Shown one piece after another: positions 1,340 through 32,170 of a stretch of DNA of 45,440 nt. The first letter of the stretch is position 1; every line of letters begins with the position of its first letter. Below the pieces are notes generated by a model, which saw only the letters and a list, made by a program, of their open reading frames with translations, was not told the DNA's origin and searched no databases. A program made the translations under genes and the position numbers. The stretch comes from an uncultured Ferrovum sp. (GTDB lineage Bacteria; Pseudomonadota; Gammaproteobacteria; Burkholderiales; Ferrovaceae): assembly GCA_903909215.1 (NCBI GenBank), contig CAIVUX010000022.1, positions 71,609 through 117,048 on the forward strand, written 5' to 3'.

Positions 1340-2652
1340 TAGCGCTCTTTAGGGGTCAGACCCCGGGGGGGTCTGACCCCAATTTGGTTGGTTGCCAGAT
1401 AGTGCTGAATGCCCATTAAAATGGCATGCGCCAATTTATCTTGGTAACGCGCATCATTTAGGCGCCGCTCTTCATCAGGGTTGGTGATAAAGGCCGTCTC
1501 CACCAGAATGGAGGGAATGTCCGGGGACTTTAGGACGGCAAAGCCGGCTTGTTCTACCTGACCTTTGTGCAAGTCATTCACCTGACTGAGTTCGCCCAAT
1601 ACGGCATGGGCCATTTTAAGGCTGTCGTTAATGGTGGCGGTTTGCGATAGGTCAAACAAGGTTTGTGCCAGATAGGGTTCTTTGACGTTGGTGTTAACCC
1701 CCCCAATTAAATCGGCTTCGTTTTCGTGTTTGGCCAACCAACGCGCCGCCACAGAGGTGGCGCCTCTCTCAGAGAGCGCGAATACCGAAGAGCCCCGAGC
1801 GTCCCGATTAATAAACGCATCGGCGTGAACGGATACAAATAAATCCGCATGCCCATGTCGCGCTTTGGCGGTGCGCTCTTGCAGCGGGATAAAGTAATCG
1901 CCATCGCGCACCAAGAGTGCGCGCAGGTTGGGTTGTGCATCCACGAGTGCTTTTAAACGCCGCACAATAGCCAAGGTGACATTCTTTTCGTGGGTGCCTG
2001 CACGACCATGGGCACCGGGATCTTCGCCGCCATGTCCGGCATCTAAAGCGATGGTGATGCGTCGCTCGGCACCACTCCTGCTCGGAGGGGTGGGGACACT
2101 TATTGCGGGAGCGGGTGTTCCCATCACGCTGGGCGTCACTACAGGAGCTGTTGCAACATCCGCGGCTAATGGGGGTGACGCTCCCATGCTTTTTTGCTCT
2201 AAGAGGGTCATTAGGGGGTCGACCACCGGAACCTCAGGGTACACATCCAACATTAACCGGTAACCGTATTGGGCCACGGGTTTAATGAGCATGGTACTGG
2301 CCTTCACGCGCGCTTTTAGATCAAACACCACACGCAGCACGCCGGGTTTGAAATGTCCCACGCGAATACTTTTGATGTAAGGATCATCGCTTTTAAGGGC
2401 CTGAGCCATATCGTCCAAGGCTTTGCTGCTGTCCACTCCCTCCAAATCCAACACCAGACGATCGGGGTTTTCAACGGTGAACAATGTGCTTTGAAATTCT
2501 GTGCGTGCCTCAAAGGCCACGCGCGTGTATTCCTCCGCGGGCCAAAAACGGACGGATTCAATCTGTGAATGGGCCCACAGCGGTAAGGCGCACGCCAACA
2601 ACGCCCCAGCGCTGAACGCTAGGCGCAAAAATGAGGCAGTCGTGCGAGGCAT
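1339..2652 (-). CDS. amiC: N-acetylmuramoyl-L-alanine amidase, periplasmic (AmiC type)
   Basis: This enzyme cleaves the bond between muramic acid and the stem peptide and is used to split daughter cells at the septum. The 437-residue protein begins with a Sec-type signal peptide (residues 1-28, ending LPLWAHS). An AMIN domain follows at about 30-135 for envelope localisation, then a low-complexity Pro/Ala/Thr linker to about 195, and an Amidase_3 domain at about 198-420. Zinc-binding motifs are visible: LDAGHGGEDPGA, SVHADAF, and the catalytic VETAFITN near the end. The last 13 residues, GVRPPRGLTPKER, are unlike the family; ten of them are encoded by a copy of the GGGGTCAGACCCC palindrome. 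The gene overlaps the end of tsaE by 34 bp and the start of miaA by 1 bp. The tsaE-amiC order is common in Proteobacteria. AmiB versus AmiC cannot be settled from sequence alone. Confidence 0.93.
   Translation of the reverse strand: MPRTTASFLRLAFSAGALLACALPLWAHSQIESVRFWPAEEYTRVAFEARTEFQSTLFTVENPDRLVLDLEGVDSSKALDDMAQALKSDDPYIKSIRVGHFKPGVLRVVFDLKARVKASTMLIKPVAQYGYRLMLDVYPEVPVVDPLMTLLEQKSMGASPPLAADVATAPVVTPSVMGTPAPAISVPTPPSRSGAERRITIALDAGHGGEDPGAHGRAGTHEKNVTLAIVRRLKALVDAQPNLRALLVRDGDYFIPLQERTAKARHGHADLFVSVHADAFINRDARGSSVFALSERGATSVAARWLAKHENEADLIGGVNTNVKEPYLAQTLFDLSQTATINDSLKMAHAVLGELSQVNDLHKGQVEQAGFAVLKSPDIPSILVETAFITNPDEERRLNDARYQDKLAHAILMGIQHYLATNQIGVRPPRGLTPKER
1352..1380. repeat. Palindromic repeat copy 1, inside the 3' end of amiC
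   Basis: Left arm GGGGTCAGACCCC at 1352-1364, spacer of three bases, and right arm GGGGTCTGACCCC at 1368-1380. The arms are perfect reverse complements of 13 bp. On the amiC strand the element is read as GVRPPRGLTP, close to the C-terminus. In mRNA it would form a very stable stem-loop just before the miaA start codon. Confidence 0.95.
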
Positions 2653-10747: not shown

Positions 10748-12703
10748 ATGACCGCCCTCCCCCCCGCCCGACTCTTGTTTGACCATGGCGTGCCCCGCTC
10801 TGTGGACTTTGATGATGTGTATCATTCAGCGGATGGCGCTGTGGCGCAAGCTGAAACCGTGTTCTTGGGTGGCAATGGTTTGCCCGAGCGTTGGCAAGAT
10901 GGCGGCTCGTTTCAGATTTTAGAAACTGGTTTTGGGCTGGGGGTTAATTTTTTGGTGACCTGGCACCATTGGCAAAACCTAGGATTCCACCTAGGGGTCA
11001 GACCCCCCATGGGGTCTGACCCCACTTTAAACCCCGTTCTGCACTTTGTGTCTTTTGAAAAACATCCCCTCACCCGCAAAGACTTGGCGCAGGCCTTAGC
11101 CCCCTTCACGCAACTGGCTCTGCTGGCGCAACAGTTACTGGCGGTTTGGCCACCTCTGGTGAGTGGCTATCACCGCTTGGAATTTGATCAAGGCCAAGTG
11201 GTATTAACCCTCATCCTGGGAGACATTCAAAAAACATTACCGCAATTGCGCATGGCAGCAGATGCTATTTATTTGGATGGTTTCTCCCCTGATAAAAACC
11301 CACACATGTGGGATGCCCCCTTATTTCATAACCTAGCCCGCCAATGCCTGCCCACCACCACCTTGGCCAGCTGGACGGTGGCGGGGCATGTGCGCCGTGC
11401 ACTAGAAGCCGAAGGGTTTACAGTTAGCCGGGAATCGGGTTTTGGGCAAAAGCGTGAACGCTTGGTGGCATTGTTTAATAAAATTCCAGCCGCAGCCTTT
11501 GCTCACATGGCCACCCCCGCACGCAATGCCGTGGTGGCGCATCACGTAAACCCCACCCGAAACACCCGTCATGCATTGGTGGTGGGGGCAGGGTTGGCGG
11601 GATGCCTTACGGCCGAAGCGCTGTCGCGACGGGGTTGGCGCGTAGACCTACTGGACGCGCACAGCGGCCCCGCGCAAGAAGCCTCAGGAAATCCTGCGGG
11701 CATTCTGCGCCCCATGCTCTCGCAAGACGACAACCGCGCCTCACGTTTGAGTCGTGCAGCCTTCTTACACGCTGCACGGCTGTTGCAAAGCCTTAACCAT
11801 ACCGGAATACTGCAATACAAGCTTTGCGGTGTGTTGCATTTGGCCGCAGACGCAGAACAAGAAATATTGCAGCGTGCCGCCATTGACCATCAAGGTGTGG
11901 CCCCTCTGTATGCACAATTCCTAGAACGCTCTGAAGCCACCGCCTGCGCAGGCATTAAAACCGAACATGGTGGTTGGTATTTTCCACAAGCGGGTTGGGT
12001 AAACCCCATAAGCCTTTGTCAGGCAGCATTGCGCTCGGCAGGAGAGCGGGTACATAGTCATTGGAATAACCCTATCGCGGGTTTGCACCGTGAGGGCAAT
12101 CACTGGCACGCCACAAATTCAGAAAGCGCTGTATTGGCAAAAGCCCCAGTGGTTATTTTAGCCACCGGCTCACACGTTTTGCCGCAAGCCGCCCATTTAC
12201 CGCTGCAATCCATTCGCGGGCAAATCACCCAATTGGGGTCAGACCCCTTTGCCCCGGGCACACCTGTATTGTGCTTGTCGGGCTACGTTATCTCAGGCTT
12301 ACCCTCGGGCATTTGCATTGGCGCCACTTACGACAACGACACCAACCCCAATCCCACGCTGAACAGTGAACAAGAAAATCTAGCGCGACTCAAACGACTG
12401 TTGCCCGACTTGGCAGATTTGGGGTCAGACCCCAAATCGGGGTCTGACCCCAAGAGCAACCCCAAGAACAGTCCCATAGGCGCCCGTGTGGGATTTCGTG
12501 CGGTATCGCAAGACCGAATGCCCATTGTGGGCGGCCTGCCCACTCACGAGGGGTTGTATACACTAATGGGGTTGGGGTCTCGAGGATTGGTGCTGGGCGG
12601 GCTTTGCGCTGAGCTGATAGCGGCACAGCTGAACGGTGAACCGCTGCCGCTGGAAATCGAACTGGCGGAGGCGCTCTCCCCTCAACGTTTCAGTAAATAT
12701 TAA
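10748..12703 (+). CDS. mnmC: Bifunctional tRNA 5-methylaminomethyl-2-thiouridine biosynthesis protein
   Basis: MnmC finishes mnm5s2U at the wobble base of Lys, Glu and Gln tRNAs: the C-terminal FAD domain removes the carboxymethyl group and the N-terminal SAM domain methylates. The 651 residues show both parts: ILETGFGLGVNFL (SAM site, about residues 57-69), LHFVSFEKHPL and DAIYLDGFSPDKNPHMW; then the FAD-binding ALVVGAGLAGCLTAEAL (about 277-293), ASGNPAGILRPML and the final AVSQDRMPIVGGLP...GLGSRGLVLGGLCAE. Two full palindromic repeats and one single arm lie inside the gene and are translated in frame: GVRPPMGSDP at 83-92, GSDP at 497-500, and GSDPKSGSDP at 559-568. The two full insertions fall in places that appear to be variable loops. 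A TACAAT lies 7 bp before the ATG, so the leader may be very short. Confidence 0.96.
   Translation: MTALPPARLLFDHGVPRSVDFDDVYHSADGAVAQAETVFLGGNGLPERWQDGGSFQILETGFGLGVNFLVTWHHWQNLGFHLGVRPPMGSDPTLNPVLHFVSFEKHPLTRKDLAQALAPFTQLALLAQQLLAVWPPLVSGYHRLEFDQGQVVLTLILGDIQKTLPQLRMAADAIYLDGFSPDKNPHMWDAPLFHNLARQCLPTTTLASWTVAGHVRRALEAEGFTVSRESGFGQKRERLVALFNKIPAAAFAHMATPARNAVVAHHVNPTRNTRHALVVGAGLAGCLTAEALSRRGWRVDLLDAHSGPAQEASGNPAGILRPMLSQDDNRASRLSRAAFLHAARLLQSLNHTGILQYKLCGVLHLAADAEQEILQRAAIDHQGVAPLYAQFLERSEATACAGIKTEHGGWYFPQAGWVNPISLCQAALRSAGERVHSHWNNPIAGLHREGNHWHATNSESAVLAKAPVVILATGSHVLPQAAHLPLQSIRGQITQLGSDPFAPGTPVLCLSGYVISGLPSGICIGATYDNDTNPNPTLNSEQENLARLKRLLPDLADLGSDPKSGSDPKSNPKNSPIGARVGFRAVSQDRMPIVGGLPTHEGLYTLMGLGSRGLVLGGLCAELIAAQLNGEPLPLEIELAEALSPQRFSKY
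10994..11023. repeat. Palindromic repeat copy 2, in frame inside mnmC (methyltransferase half)
   Basis: Left arm at 10994-11006, four-base spacer, right arm at 11011-11023; both arms are perfect. The 30-bp element falls exactly on codon boundaries and encodes ten residues, GVRPPMGSDP. It lies between the helix after the SAM-binding motif and the strand LHFVSFEK. Confidence 0.95.
12235..12247. repeat. Single arm of the palindromic repeat inside mnmC
   Basis: A perfect 13-base arm GGGGTCAGACCCC with no partner arm. It is read as LGSDP in the FAD domain. It may be a solo site, or a copy whose second arm was lost. The same peptide GSDP is produced by copy 3 nearby. Confidence 0.75.
12421..12451. 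repeat. Palindromic repeat copy 3, in frame inside mnmC (oxidoreductase half)
   Basis: Left arm at 12421-12433, five-base spacer, right arm at 12439-12451, both perfect. Arms plus spacer keep the same frame (18 bp apart), so GSDP is encoded twice: GSDPKSGSDPK. It precedes the conserved ARVGFRAVSQDRMP segment of the FAD domain. Confidence 0.95.
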
Positions 12704-14398: not shown

Positions 14399-15271
14399 CT
14401 AGAGTTTGGTTCCCCAGCGCAACTTTTCGCGCAACATGGCGAAATAGCTGTGCAGGGGCGGATGAAGCAGGTGTATGCCATCTTCGGCGGGGGTAATAAT
14501 TAAGCGATCATCGGGCATCAATTCAAAATGACCTTGCACATCAAAATTGGCAAAAGCGCCTTCGCCCTTTTGCAAAATAACTTCCACGGTACTGCGCTCG
14601 CTTAACACAATAGGCCGATTGCTTAAGGTGTGCGGACAAATGGGCACCAATACGATGGCCCCCAAATCAGGATGAATAATGGGACCCCCGGAAGACAGCG
14701 CATAAGCAGTAGACCCGGTGGGTGTGGCCACAATAAGTCCATCCGAACGTAAGCTGTAAACAAATCGCCCATCCACATACACTTCCATTTCAATCATGCT
14801 GCCGCGCGCACCCTTGGTGATCACCACATCATTCAAGGCCACTGTTTGCAACACGTCTTTTCCATCACGCCACACATGGGTTTTAAGCAAGGTGCGCTTT
14901 TCTTCCTGAAACTGTCCTGCCAACACATCGCTTAGCATGGTCTCCATGGACTGGGCGGGAATATCGCTTAAAAAGCCCAGTTTCCCCAAATTAATACCGA
15001 TCAACGGCACATTTTGGCAGGCCAGCGCGCGCGCTGCAGAAAGCATGGTGCCATCACCCCCCAATACCACCACTAAGTCCGCGTGGGCGCTAATTTCCTC
15101 CAAATCCACCACGGGGGCTCGGTTGGGGGCTAATGCCGCTGCAGAACGATTATCCAACACCACAGACAAGCCACGCGCTTCAAGAAAGGCGATTAATTTC
15201 TCTAAAGGGCCCGCTAGGGATTGACTATCGTACTTGCCAACCACGGCAATACGTTTAAAAGAGGATTCCAT
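14399..15271 (-). CDS. nadK: NAD kinase
   Basis: NadK phosphorylates NAD to NADP in the cytoplasm. The 290-residue protein carries the signature LVVLGGDGTMLSAAR near residues 68-82 and INLGKLGFLSDIP near 93-105. VALNDVVITKGARG follows near 143, as does the glycine-rich region IVATPTGSTAYALSSGGPIIHP near 180-200. Length matches proteobacterial NadK (about 290-300). It is transcribed away from hrcA, with 35 bp between the two start codons, so the promoters must overlap or lie within the coding sequences. The pairing of nadK-recN with the divergent hrcA heat-shock cluster is a standard betaproteobacterial arrangement. Confidence 0.97.
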   Translation of the reverse strand: MESSFKRIAVVGKYDSQSLAGPLEKLIAFLEARGLSVVLDNRSAAALAPNRAPVVDLEEISAHADLVVVLGGDGTMLSAARALACQNVPLIGINLGKLGFLSDIPAQSMETMLSDVLAGQFQEEKRTLLKTHVWRDGKDVLQTVALNDVVITKGARGSMIEMEVYVDGRFVYSLRSDGLIVATPTGSTAYALSSGGPIIHPDLGAIVLVPICPHTLSNRPIVLSERSTVEVILQKGEGAFANFDVQGHFELMPDDRLIITPAEDGIHLLHPPLHSYFAMLREKLRWGTKL

Positions 15272-15306
15272 GTGCGGAATTAAACCACAGATTGAGGTAA
15301 AATGAA

Positions 15307-16329
15307 GTGATGTTAAATGACCGCGCCCGCTCCTTACTGAAAGCCCTGGTAGAACGCTACATTGAAGATGGCCAGCCCGTGGGCTCCCGCGCCCTCTCCA
15401 AAGTATCAGGGATGGATCTGTCTGCAGCCAGTATTCGCAATGTCATGGCCGATTTAGAGGAATTGGGCTTTATTGCCAGCCCTCACACCTCCGCCGGACG
15501 CGTTCCTACCCCACGCGGCTATCGGTTTTTTGTGGACAGCCTGCTAACCATTAAACCCATTGCCGCCGATACCCTTAATCAATTAGAAGAACATCTGCAC
15601 CCAGCCGACCCGCAGCAATTGGTTTCGGCGGCTTCGCAAATGCTCTCCGAGCTGACTGCCTTCGCTGGTATTGTGCGCACACCCAAACGCCGCGTAGAAG
15701 GGTTTCGCCATTTAGAATTTTTACGCTTGGCAGAAAAGCGCTTGCTGTTGATTATTGTGACTTTGGAAGGGGATGTGCAAAACCGAGTGATGATTACAGA
15801 ACGTGCGTACACCCAAACAGAGTTAACGCGCGCGGCCACCTACCTAAACGAGCATTACACCGGCAGTGATTTTCTAAAAATTCGCGATAGCCTGCACACT
15901 GAATTACAAACCCTAAATCGCGACATTCAAAGCCTCATGGAAACCGCCATGGAAGTGGGCAGTGCGGCGTTGCGAGAACGGCAAAATGATTATGTATTAA
16001 CGGGTGAAACACGCCTCCTGGTGCATCAGGATGTATCGCAAAACATGGTTCATCTGCGTCGCCTCTTTGACGCCTTCGAACAAAAGACTGGGCTCATGCA
16101 GCTCTTGGACATGAGCCAGAGTGCTGAGGGTGTTAAGATTTTTATCGGCGGCGAATCGGGTTTAATCACCTTCGATGAGTTCAGCGTGGTCACGGCCCCC
16201 TACGAAGTAGATGGCCAAGTGGTGGGCACCTTGGGCGTGGTGGGCCCCACCCGCATGGCCTATGAACGCATCATCCCCATTGTGGACGTTACCGCCAAAT
16301 TACTCTCTAGCGCACTCTCTCAACATTAA
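15307..16329 (+). CDS. hrcA: Heat-inducible transcription repressor HrcA
   Basis: HrcA represses class I heat-shock genes by binding the CIRCE operator and is kept active by GroEL. The 340 residues include the N-terminal winged helix ([23 protein letters not shown]), then [18 protein letters not shown] and [23 protein letters not shown]. The C-terminal domain includes [19 protein letters not shown] and [21 protein letters not shown]. Two starts are possible: the GTG given here, 8 bases after GAGGT, or the ATG directly following at 15310. I find no recognisable CIRCE sequence (TTAGCACTC-N9-GAGTGCTAA) upstream of any gene in the window, so its targets here are not evident; groESL elsewhere is the likely main target. 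hemH starts 2 bp after its stop. Confidence 0.96.
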
Positions 16330-16331
16330 TC

Positions 16332-17438
16332 ATGGCACGCTACTTTCCCGAACCCGATACTGTTCATGGCACACCGCTTAAAACCGGTGTGTTGGTGGTT
16401 AACCTTGGCACGCCGGACGCCCCCGAAAAAGGGGCTCTGCGCCGTTATCTCAAGCAATTTTTAAGCGATCCACGGGTGGTAGAAATTTGGCGCCCTCTGT
16501 GGTGGCTTATTTTAAACGGCATTATTCTCAACACCCGCCCGACAAAATCGGCACATAAATACGCCACCATTTGGACTGCCGAGGGCTCGCCTCTGCGCGT
16601 GAATACCGAGCGTCAAGCCATGGCGCTGGCCACCCGGCTGCGCGACCATGCGGCCTCCCCTGTGGCAGTGGCTTATGCCATGCGCTACGGCCAACCCTCC
16701 ATTGAGGCGGGTGTGGCACAACTCAAAAAAGACAACTGTGATCGTATTTTATTGCTGCCGCTCTACCCGCAATATGCTGCCAGCACCACTGCCTCCTCCA
16801 TGGACGCTCTCTTCGCGGCCTTGGCACGCTGGCGCAACGTGCCCGGCATTCGTGTTGTGCGCCATTATCACGACCACCCCGCCTACATTAGCGCCTTAAA
16901 AAACAGCGTCGAAGCCTATTGGGCTGTGCACGGTCGCCCCGATAAATTGGTCATGAGCTTTCATGGGGTGCCGCGCTACACCTTAGACAAAGGCGATCCC
17001 TACCACTGCGAATGCCTTAAAACCGGGCGCTTGCTGGCGGAGTCTTTGGGGTTGCATGCCGATCAATATGTGGTGTCATTTCAATCTCTCTTTGGTCGCG
17101 CCGAATGGGTTAAACCCTATACCGAAGCCACGGTGCGCCAATTGGCCAAAGCTGGCGTGGGCAATGTGCATGTGATCTGCCCAGGTTTTCCAGCGGATTG
17201 CCTAGAAACCTTAGAAGAAATCGCCATGGAAGTAAAAGCCGCCTTTCACTCCGACGGGGGCCGTGAATATCATTACATCCCCGCCTTGAATGACAGCCCG
17301 GCCTGGATTGGTGCACTAACTGAAATCGCCCTAGACCATTTGGGTGGTTGGTTGGACCCCCGCTGGACGCCACAACAGGCCCAATTAGAGGCCGAACACA
17401 CGCAAAATCGCGCCTTAAGCGCCGGCGCACTTCGCTAA
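16332..17438 (+). CDS. hemH: Ferrochelatase
   Basis: HemH inserts ferrous iron into protoporphyrin IX, the final step of haem synthesis. The 368-residue protein shows [13 protein letters not shown] at about 19-31, [12 protein letters not shown] at about 116-127, [17 protein letters not shown], and the catalytic-histidine segment [22 protein letters not shown] near 207-228. [17 protein letters not shown] and [16 protein letters not shown] near 280-295 complete the pattern. The length is typical of the betaproteobacterial form. It lies two bases after hrcA, so the two are almost certainly co-transcribed, and hemH in the middle of the heat-shock cluster is the usual order in this class. The sigma32-type promoter for grpE starts 24 bp after its stop. 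Confidence 0.97.
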
Positions 17439-17462
17439 ACCTCGTCTTTTTAACCTCCACCC

Positions 17463-17490
17463 CTTGAACCTTAGGGGTCAGACCCCATAT
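17463..17490 (+). promoter_or_regulatory. Sigma32 (RpoH) heat-shock promoter upstream of grpE
   Basis: CTTGAA at 17463-17468, a 14-base spacer and CCCCATAT at 17483-17490 match the sigma32 consensus (CTTGAA, about 14 bases, CCCCATNT) at every position. The spacing equals that of the E. coli dnaK P1 promoter. The -10 element is built from the end of the left arm and the ATAT spacer of a palindromic repeat. The start site would fall in the right arm, about 30 bp before the grpE ATG. Confidence 0.8.
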
Positions 17491-17503
17491 GGGGTCTGAC
17501 CCC
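17474..17503. repeat. Palindromic repeat copy 4, between hemH and grpE
   Basis: Left arm at 17474-17486, spacer ATAT, right arm at 17491-17503; both arms are perfect. It overlaps the sigma32 promoter, and its right arm would form the first bases of the grpE transcript. It could also act as a hairpin in the hrcA-hemH-grpE read-through transcript. Confidence 0.95.
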
Positions 17504-17527
17504 AAACTTTTAATTGGAGATTGTGTA

Positions 17528-18058
17528 ATGGAACCCAACACCCCCGAAAACCCGGATGCAGCCCCCGAGGCCGCCGCTATTCCAGAAATGACGTTGGAAC
17601 AGGCTTTGGCAGCCCTCAATGCAGCCGAAGAAGCGGCCCGAGAAAAAGAGGATGGTTGGTTACGTGCCAAGGCTGAAACCGAGAACGTGCGCAAGCGCGC
17701 CGCTCAAGACTTGGTCCACTCACGTAAATTTGCCGTGGAATCGTTTGGTGCCGAGCTGCTGGCTGTTATGGATAGTCTAGAAGCCGCGCTTGCAGTAAAA
17801 GAGGCCGCCCTCGACACTTATCGCAGCGGGGTAGAGCTCACAGCCCGCCAACTGACCAGTGCTTTCGAGAAATTCAACATCAGCACCATCAACCCCGTAA
17901 ACGAAAAATTTGACCCCAATCGCCATCAGGCCATTGCCAGCCTAGAAGACGCTAGCGTAGCTCCCGGCACGGTGCTATCCGTTTTGCAGCGCGGTTACGC
18001 CTTGCACGAGCGGGTTCTGCGCCCAGCCTTGGTAACAGTGTCCAAGGCCTTGGGGTAA
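17528..18058 (+). CDS. grpE: Nucleotide exchange factor GrpE
   Basis: GrpE releases ADP from DnaK and acts as a thermosensor of the chaperone system. The 176-residue product has an acidic, Ala/Pro-rich N-terminus, then a long helix (EEAAREKEDGWLRAKAETEN). The conserved middle is NVRKRAAQDLVHSRKFAVESFGAELL, and the C-terminal beta-domain has NPVNEKFDPNRHQAIASLED and VLSVLQRGYALHERVLRPALVTVSK. The frame is open further upstream into the palindromic repeat, but the ATG at 17528 is preceded by GGAGA at 17516-17520 and gives a normal N-terminus. The gene is bracketed by repeat copies 4 and 5 and driven by its own sigma32-type promoter, as well as probable read-through from hrcA-hemH. Confidence 0.96.
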   Translation: MEPNTPENPDAAPEAAAIPEMTLEQALAALNAAEEAAREKEDGWLRAKAETENVRKRAAQDLVHSRKFAVESFGAELLAVMDSLEAALAVKEAALDTYRSGVELTARQLTSAFEKFNISTINPVNEKFDPNRHQAIASLEDASVAPGTVLSVLQRGYALHERVLRPALVTVSKALG

Positions 18059-18063
18059 TCCGT

Positions 18064-18093
18064 GGGGTCAGACCCCTAGGGGGGTCTGACCCC
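18064..18093. repeat. Palindromic repeat copy 5, between grpE and dnaK
   Basis: Left arm at 18064-18076, spacer TAGG, right arm at 18081-18093; both arms are perfect. It starts 5 bp after the grpE stop and ends 14 bp before the -35 of the dnaK promoter. It may act as a transcript-end hairpin for grpE, though no T-run follows it. Confidence 0.95.
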
Positions 18094-18107
18094 AATAAAA
18101 CAGACCT

Positions 18108-18135
18108 CTTGAATTTGAGCAAAACAACCTTATTT
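18108..18135 (+). promoter_or_regulatory. Probable sigma32 (RpoH) promoter upstream of dnaK
   Basis: CTTGAA at 18108-18113 is followed by a 14-base spacer and CCTTATTT at 18128-18135. The -35 is perfect and the spacing is the same as at the grpE promoter. The -10 is weaker (CCTTATTT against CCCCATNT). It lies 42 bp before the dnaK ATG, which has a GAGGT ribosome site. Confidence 0.6.
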
Positions 18136-18176
18136 ACTGTGCATGAGAACATTTAAACTTTTTTGAGGTAGACAAC

Positions 18177-20120
18177 ATGGGCAAGATTATCGGTATTGAC
18201 TTGGGCACCACCAACTCCTGCGTTTCCGTTATGGAAAACGGCAAGCCCAAGGTGATTGAAAACGCTGAAGGCACTCGCACCACCCCCTCCATCGTGGCCT
18301 ATATGGACGACGGTGAGGTGATTGTGGGTGCGCCAGCCAAACGCCAAGCCATCACTAACCCACGCAACACCTTGTTTGCAGTGAAGCGGCTCATCGGCCG
18401 TAAGTTTGCCGAAGACATGGTGCAACGAGACATCAAGATGGTGCCATACAGCATCGTCAAGGCCGACAATGGCGATGCTTGGGTAGAAGCCCAAGGCCGC
18501 AAAATGGCGCCCCCAGAAATTTCGGCCGCGGTTCTGCAAAAAATGAAAAAAACCGCCGAAGATTACTTGGGCGAAGAAGTGACGGAAGCGGTCATTACCG
18601 TGCCCGCCTACTTTAACGACAGTCAACGGCAAGCCACCAAGGATGCAGGACGCATCGCAGGCCTTGAAGTAAAGCGCATTATTAACGAACCCACTGCAGC
18701 GGCTTTGGCCTTTGGGATGGATAAGAAAGAAGGCGACCGCAAAATTGCCGTCTATGACTTGGGCGGCGGCACCTTTGATATTTCTATTATTGAAATTGCC
18801 GAAGTGGATGGCGAGCATCAATTTGAAGTGCTCTCCACCAACGGCGACACCTTCTTGGGTGGCGAAGATTTTGATATGCGTATCATTGATTTCTTGGCCG
18901 ATGAGTTTAAGCGTGAAAACGGTCTTGATCTGCGCAAGGACGTGTTGGCCCTGCAACGCCTAAAAGAAGCAGCAGAAAAAGCCAAGATTGAGTTGTCCTC
19001 ATCGCAACAAACCGAAGTAAACCTGCCCTACATCACCGCCGATGCTTCAGGACCTAAGCATTTGGTGGTGAAGATGACGCGTGCCAAACTGGAAAGTTTG
19101 GTGGAAGAATTGATTGCCCGCACCATTGGCCCTTGCGAAATGGCCATCAAGGATGCAGGCGTGAAAATCAGCGACATTTCTGACGTTATTCTGGTGGGCG
19201 GTCAATCGCGCATGCCTAAAGTGCAAGATCGCGTGAAAGAAATCTTTGGTCGCGAACCGCGCAAAGACGTAAACCCCGATGAAGCGGTGGCCATTGGCGC
19301 CGGCATTCAAGGCGGTGTGCTGCAAGGCGATGTGAAAGACGTATTGCTGTTGGATGTGACGCCCTTGTCGCTGGGCATTGAAACTTTGGGCGGCGTGATG
19401 ACCAAGCTGATTCACAAGAACACCACTATTCCCACCAAGGCTTCGCAGGTGTTTTCTACTGCCGATGACAACCAGTCCGCCGTGACCATTCATGTGTTGC
19501 AAGGCGAGCGTGACATGTCCTCGGGCAACAAGAGCTTGGGTCAATTTAACCTCAGCGATATTCCGCCCTCACCGCGCGGCATGCCGCAAATTGAAGTGAC
19601 TTTTGATATTGATGCCAATGGTATATTGCATGTTAATGCCAAAGACAAAGCCACGGGCAAAGAAAACAAGATCACCATCAAGGCTAATTCTGGTTTGTCG
19701 GAAGGGGAAATTCAACGCATGGTGAAGGATGCAGAAGAGCATGCGGAAGAAGATAAGAAAACCTTAGAAGCGGTAAACACGCGCAACGGCTTAGAAGCCC
19801 TTATTCACAGCGTTACCAAAACACTAAAAGAACATGGCGACAAGATTACTGCAGAAGAAAAAACTAAGATTGAAGAGGCCTTGAAAGACGCAGAAGAAAC
19901 CTTAAAAGCGGATAAGCTGGAAGAGATGCCCGCCAAGACCGAAGCGCTTTCCACCGCCAGCCATGTATTGGCCGAGAAGATGTACGCCGATGCGCAAGCA
20001 GCGGCCGGCGCTGCGCAAGGGGGTGCCCATAGCGACGGAACAGCAGCTGCTGGCAGCACCCATAAAAATGAAGACAATGTTGTTGATGCTGAGTTTGAAG
20101 AAGTGAAGGACAAAAAATAA
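18177..20120 (+). CDS. dnaK: Molecular chaperone DnaK (Hsp70)
   Basis: DnaK binds exposed hydrophobic segments of unfolded proteins in an ATP-dependent cycle with DnaJ and GrpE, and it also controls sigma32 stability. The 647 residues show the ATPase motifs [15 protein letters not shown] (4-18), [15 protein letters not shown] (about 195-209) and [13 protein letters not shown]. The inter-domain linker [19 protein letters not shown] follows, then the substrate-binding domain and a lid ending in [15 protein letters not shown], close to the canonical C-terminus. Length is normal (E. coli 638). The start has GAGGT 8 bases upstream. It has its own heat-shock promoter between grpE and dnaK, and dnaJ follows after 91 bp. 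Identification is certain. Confidence 0.99.
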
Positions 20121-31548: not shown

Positions 31549-32170
31549 TCCTCACTCCTCGTATAAATTCACGTATTAAAACAGGATCTTTAATGCCAGG
31601 GGACGATTCCACTCCGCTACTCACATCCACAGCCCAAGGCTTCACCGCCTGCATGGCAGCGACTACATTGTTCGGGGTCAGACCCCCAGATAAAATAATC
31701 GGCAAAGGACGTTTTTGTGGAACCAAGGACCAATCAAAAGATTGCCCGGTACCGCCGTGCACGCCTTCTACATAGGCATCCACCAGCAAAGCGCGTGCAC
31801 CCACATACTCAACTGCATATTGTAGCAAATCAAGATGGGGCGTCACCCGCGCCACCTTAATGTAGGGCTGGTTGTAACGGGCACATTGCGCAGGAGTTTC
31901 CTCTCCATGAAACTGCAAGACATCCAATCGCAGCACAGACAATACCGATTCAATGTATTGGGGTGAAGCGTTTACAAATAACCCCACCAAAGACACGAAA
32001 GGGGGAAGCGTTGCGGCAATTTCCAGTGCACAGGCCAAACCCACCGCGCGTGGACTTTTGTCGTAGAACACCAAACCCAAGGCATCCGCTCCCGCAGAGG
32101 CGGCGATCTCGGCATCTTCAGGACGGGTCATGCCGCAAATTTTAATGCGTGTGGCCATGGGGTGCGTCAT
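31526..32170 (-). CDS. trpF: Phosphoribosylanthranilate isomerase
   Basis: TrpF converts phosphoribosylanthranilate to CdRP in tryptophan synthesis. The 214-residue TIM-barrel protein has [18 protein letters not shown] (catalytic Cys, about 8-25), [38 protein letters not shown] and [21 protein letters not shown] (catalytic Asp). It also has [15 protein letters not shown] and [15 protein letters not shown]. Two starts are possible: 32170 (MTHPMATR...), overlapping truA by 29 bp, or the ATG four codons later at 32158. I list the longer form; neither has a clear ribosome site. The SGGLTP codons happen to match one arm of the palindromic repeat, most likely by chance. Confidence 0.96.

Follow-up and report, generated by a model that had tools for sequence, protein, structure and literature searches.

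A predicted sigma32 promoter of grpE, probably inherited and overlain by a REP-like palindrome in an uncultured Ferrovum sp.

The hemH-grpE region and its palindromic repeat

The window, which is the whole stretch of 45,440 nucleotides analysed here, comes from an uncultured Ferrovum sp. (contig CAIVUX010000022.1, positions 71,609 to 117,048) and contains the gene order hrcA-hemH-grpE-dnaK, as supported by NCBIfam. The upstream gene hemH (16332-17438), grpE (17528-18058, stop codon included) and dnaK (18177-20120) are all on the plus strand, and GGAG is found 8 bases ahead of the grpE start codon (ATG at 17528). No part of the window matched Rfam at the gathering scores, and no CIRCE-like site (the HrcA operator) was found in it at up to three mismatches to the consensus; hrcA itself is present in the window.

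Ahead of grpE, on the plus strand, a -35 element CTTGAA (17463-17468), a 14-base spacer (17469-17482) and a -10 element CCCCATAT (17483-17490) match the sigma32 (RpoH) consensus at 13 of 13 positions, which confirms the claim of the earlier note that both the full consensus and the spacing of dnaK P1 are present. The -10 element of E. coli sigma32 is quoted as CCCCATNT or CCCCATWT in the part of PMC6687850 covered, and the dnaKp1 scaffold of the sigma32 open complex, as described in the portion of PMC10216364 covered, combines a consensus -35 element with a 14-base spacing, in agreement with the grpE site. That scaffold spans -39 to +15 with CTTGAA at -35 to -30, and counting from it places the predicted transcription start at 17498 on the plus strand. 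An in-frame ATG at 17489-17491 opens a longer grpE reading frame, but it lies upstream of the predicted start. When the window was scanned at spacers 11-16, the grpE site was the one match, and any match was obtained in 2 of 100 shuffles. A sigma70 promoter in the hemH-grpE gap was also considered and rejected, as the three matches in 15200-18400 were at chance level and none was in the gap.

A perfect palindromic repeat of 30 bases, GGGGTCAGACCCC-ATAT-GGGGTCTGACCCC, occupies 17474-17503. The -35 element is native sequence and ends 5 bases before the repeat; within the -10 element, CCCC is the end of the left arm and ATAT is the loop, both as the earlier note had described them. The predicted start falls within the right arm, so that only 6 bases of the repeat would be transcribed into the heat-shock mRNA. 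On the opposite strand the palindrome also spells CCCCATAT, with only ATTAAA (two mismatches) as the -35 element.

We examined the genome to which the window belongs (1,534,657 bases in 51 contigs, 99.85% complete) for other sites of this type. Exact consensus sites with spacers of 12-16 were found at two places, grpE and clpB, and the reversed-pattern control gave none. Apart from the grpE site, exact CTTGAA-N14-CCCCATNT occurs in the genome only at clpB (L047, about 1501-1530, minus strand), where there is no repeat. Two further sites have one mismatch, the first just ahead of lon and the second inside a reading frame that, judged from its translation, we take for dethiobiotin synthetase; classical heat-shock genes (grpE, clpB and lon) thus lie downstream of three of the four best sites. 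At up to two mismatches there were 49 sites in the genome versus 29 in the control, so only the top of the list is informative and the two-mismatch sites are mostly background. RpoH is encoded in the same genome (TIGR02392, 387.1 bits; cut-off 323.1).

Conservation of the promoter among relatives

The regions upstream of grpE were compared at 110 loci (30 and 80), taking 260-330 bases per locus if the contig extended that far. After two loci that were too short (L013 and L087) and 27 duplicate promoters had been removed, 81 distinct loci remained, including that of the window, and the best site of each was taken at spacings of 12-16. Of the loci with a named group, the nearest belong to Ferrovaceae and Ferrovum, and the others mainly to Methylophilaceae and Zoogloea. 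The site scored 13 of 13 in 27 loci, 12 in 39, 11 in 13 and 10 in two; at least 11 positions were therefore matched in 79 of the 81 loci with the window and in 78 of the 80 others, 26 of which are perfect. Letter shuffling gave 1,620 control regions, of which 1.2% attained a score of at least 11 and none a score of 12. The repeat unit, by comparison, was found upstream of grpE in none of the 80 other distinct loci and occurs only in the region of the window.

The same holds within the family Ferrovaceae. From 31 other genomes, three without a GrpE match and one cut at a contig end (L013) were set aside, and all of the 27 with a readable region upstream of grpE score 11-13 with a spacing of 13-15 (12-16 allowed). 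The lowest score is represented by CTTGAA-N15-CCTCACAT in G017 (11 of 13), a site identical to that of L094. A family comparison of 26 relatives had been restricted to spacings of 13-15, and the wider scan at 12-16 picked the same sites; the base after CTTGAA is A in 24 of these 26 versus C at the grpE site of the window. In the nearest genera (g3, g7 and g8, chosen by GrpE identity; a 13th genome, G027, has no GrpE match), 12 loci could be read, and their -10 element is CCCCATCT in seven and CCCCATAT in L006 only. Most of the loci seen from Methylophilaceae and Zoogloea likewise have the promoter without the repeat.

Since the promoter is present in relatives that do not have the repeat, the repeat did not create it. 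The earlier note had suggested that the promoter arose when the repeat landed beside a CTTGAA, and had itself named a promoter conserved without the repeat in the hemH-grpE gap of relatives as the observation that would speak against this; such conservation was what the comparison found. Taking sequence and conservation together, the grpE site is a sigma32 promoter, whose activity is predicted.

Distribution of the repeat

Exact double units of the repeat are present in 81 copies (162 ends) in the genome of the window, five of them in the window itself. Lone half-units GGGGTCAGACCCC without a partner were also seen in the window at 12235-12247 and 31674-31686. Among the 32 genomes of the family, exact double units were found in two, namely the 81 copies above and a single copy in G023; among 300 sampled genomes of the order, a sample that does not contain G023, they were again found in two, the genome of the window and G291 (three copies). 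The repeat has therefore expanded in this lineage alone, as far as the genomes searched show. The copies in G291 (C4:12364, 12930 and 32349), which belongs to another family of the order, have arms and loops (ATGC and GTAC) as in the genome of the window, which hints at mobility or transfer.

The outer flanks extend the palindrome by at least 6 bases (6-19) in nine of 52 copies examined (for example L039:1501, L043:1501, L059:64, L160:1501 and L180:801), whereas random pairing gave a mean of 0.35 and a maximum of three such copies. The extension is mostly specific to each copy. In L180, and in part in L160, it looks like a nested unit copy; L059 and L165 are close to the ends of their contigs. 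The flanks of the grpE copy do not extend the palindrome.

A RAYT transposase was considered as the mobiliser of the repeat and rejected, as a search for Y1_Tnp (PF01797) gave no match in the genome of the window, with a control that was positive in five of 14 genomes. The 13-base repeat unit was not found in the literature searched; matches to its first 10 bases were, judged from the listing, none on bacteria, and the combination of Ferrovum with 'extragenic palindromic' returned no literature. The part of PMC4886054, on Ferrovum genomes, that was covered does not mention the repeat.

Overlay of the ancestral promoter

The distance from the -35 element to the start codon is 65 bases in the window and 53-59 bases in the 12 loci read from the nearest genera (43-73 over 27 loci, in some of which the start codon is uncertain). 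A clean insertion of 30 bases 3' of the -35 element into the gap of these relatives would give about 83-89 bases. The observed length therefore suggests that the repeat is largely a replacement rather than a clean insertion, as far as lengths can tell given the variation of the leader from genus to genus; less probably, the ancestral gap was shorter and received a clean insertion. In the window, 24 bases lie between the repeat and the ATG, and 11 bases between the start of the -35 element and the repeat. In the 12 nearest relatives, the first base of the -10 element lies 33-38 bases ahead of the ATG and 19-21 bases beyond the start of the -35 element, so that the repeat now occupies the ancestral position of the -10 element and leaves no space for it elsewhere.

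These results indicate, with good probability, that an inherited RpoH promoter was overlain by the repeat in this lineage with its register and sequence kept. The earlier note had spoken of co-option, and the term stands only in a weak sense: the -10 element now lies within a repeat copy, by which an existing -10 element was apparently replaced without being destroyed, and the repeat was not its creator.

How well a repeat copy suits the promoter was examined in the genome of the window. Of the 162 repeat ends, 23 spell CCCCAT by virtue of a loop of 4-5 bases with AT as its first letters, and six spell the full CCCCATNT. When the flanks of 104 ends (52 of the 81 copies) were scanned at spacings of 13-15, the grpE end alone had at least five of the six bases of CTTGAA, and four of six were found in 12 of 312 combinations of end and spacing. 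The earlier note had proposed looking for other repeats with ATAT loops after CTTGAA; the second copy with this loop (C24:34268) has no such -35 element, and grpE was left as the sole case. The fit to a promoter is thus not a habit of the copies seen, and an inherited -35 element and a suitable copy coincide at one site. Retention of CCCCAT may be explained by shared letters (recombination at CCCC), by selection for grpE expression or by luck.

It is also possible, although we regard it as the less probable course, that the ancestral -10 element itself survives as the central CCCCATATGG, kept in place while the arms formed or recombined on either side of it through the shared letters CCCC and GGGG. 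The occurrence of CCCCATATGG without the repeat at the same site in L006 (G013) and L025 (G029) is consistent with this, but these loci are from different genera and may be independent, and CCCCATCT is the form found in the nearest genera at seven of 12 loci. Likewise, the rarity of exact CCCCATNT at repeat ends means that a random copy would seldom fit, but the ATAT loop recurs at C24:34268 beside no such -35 element; and the flank-extended palindromes, an excess over the shuffled expectation that hints at growth in place, do not include the grpE copy.

Possible effects of the hairpin

We also considered whether the hairpin is functional, such that it blocks or processes read-through from hrcA-hemH and leaves the heat-shock start beyond the hairpin as the only source of grpE expression. 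This seems unlikely. The full hairpin (17455-17515) does fold at -30.8 kcal/mol (z -5.8), and the predicted heat-shock leader (17497-17560) has no unusual fold (z -0.6); the openness of the ribosome site is 0.005-0.007 in the read-through transcript versus 0.18-0.48 in the heat-shock transcript. However, the openness is 0.008 when the repeat is removed, and when either the flanks or the repeat were shuffled 200 times, about equally low values arose in 17 and 13 cases, respectively. Masking of the ribosome site as an effect of the repeat was accordingly rejected, since the low read-through openness does not depend on the repeat and is not unusual among shuffled sequences; the read-through values among 15 relatives range from 0.019 to 0.52. 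Nor is the full stem followed by a run of T: the one terminator-like match there consists of the right arm alone, and the four such matches in 15200-18400 are within chance (4.2 expected). By extruding or snapping back, a palindrome centred on the -10 element could in addition make the firing of grpE depend on supercoiling or temperature, or it could bar read-through, a proposal to which we give little credence; if it were true, a mobile repeat would be an added layer of grpE control in this bacterium.

A second copy of the repeat upstream of dnaK

Between grpE and dnaK, a second copy of the repeat with the loop TAGG (18064-18093) lies upstream of, and outside, a sigma32-like dnaK promoter, CTTGAA-N14-CCTTATTT (18108-18135, plus strand), which has no repeat inside. 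This promoter scores 11 of 13 in the window, and that of 19 relatives, CTTGAA-N14-CCCGATNT and similar, scores 11-12 of 13; no start of dnaK could be identified in L014. The operon therefore has a repeat bordering each of its two heat-shock promoters, and that of dnaK was left intact. The distance from the conserved end of grpE to the dnaK -35 element is 61 bases in the window (31 minus the repeat), 18-19 bases in 13 of the 19 relatives and 64-96 bases, with no repeat, in the other six. The second copy may be an insertion or a replacement, and the gap comparison decides neither, because some of the repeat-free relatives have an equally long gap.

Comparison with known systems

The grpE site resembles promoters of the sigma32 dnaK P1 type in its CTTGAA, 14-base spacer and CCCCATNT, in the heat-shock gene downstream and in the RpoH of its genome, and differs from them in that a dispersed palindromic repeat contains its entire -10 element and nine bases of the 14-base spacer. 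REP sequences, which are associated with RAYT transposases, are short, dispersed, hairpin-forming palindromes with many copies per genome. The repeat family at grpE shares these features in its own genome, but as no Y1_Tnp protein was found there, we call the repeat only REP-like.

A closer parallel in arrangement is the 'Snyder promoter' of Neisseria, for which the part of PMC2649163 covered describes a native -35 element outside, and a sigma70 -10 element inside, a Correia repeat enclosed element. The grpE site too has a native -35 element and a -10 element wholly within a palindromic repeat, although for sigma32 rather than sigma70. Correia elements, as described in that part, are about 69-157 bases long and reported only from Neisseria, and the 30-base palindrome at grpE was set apart from them by this description. 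The 'Snyder promoter' is described there as generated by insertion, whereas the grpE promoter, which relatives have although they lack the repeat, is older than its repeat. That a chance landing beside CTTGAA supplied grpE with a -10 element that it did not have is very improbable: the -10 element does lie entirely within the repeat, and the frequency of CCCCAT at repeat ends makes such creation possible, but the idea is already refuted by the conserved promoter of all 27 readable family genomes and of most Methylophilaceae and Zoogloea loci seen, unless the lineage lost and regained its promoter, and no other of the 104 ends has a comparable -35 element.

The combination of a native -35 element with a -10 element borne by a repeat is thus already known for sigma70, and what is new here is modest, namely sigma32, a REP-like palindrome and a history of overwriting. 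In a limited search, no bacterial precedent for the insertion of a MITE into a heat-shock promoter was found among the titles listed.

Conclusions

We propose that grpE had an ancestral RpoH promoter, common to Ferrovaceae and other betaproteobacteria, and that in this lineage a copy of the REP-like palindrome came to lie over 17474-17503. The copy would have displaced the -10 element together with nine bases of the 14-base spacer and the beginning of the leader, with its arm end CCCC and loop ATAT falling exactly at the position of the ancestral CCCCATNT. RNA polymerase with RpoH would still read a perfect promoter and start near 17498 in the right arm, and selection on grpE would presumably have kept only an outcome in which register and sequence were preserved.

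At the grpE site, a dispersed palindrome clearly sits in the core of an important promoter whose sequence is unspoiled. This is also a caution that promoter elements borne by repeats should not be called newly created before relatives have been checked. The case suggests how repeats can come to resemble regulatory inventions, and it suggests a strong selective hold on heat-shock promoters.
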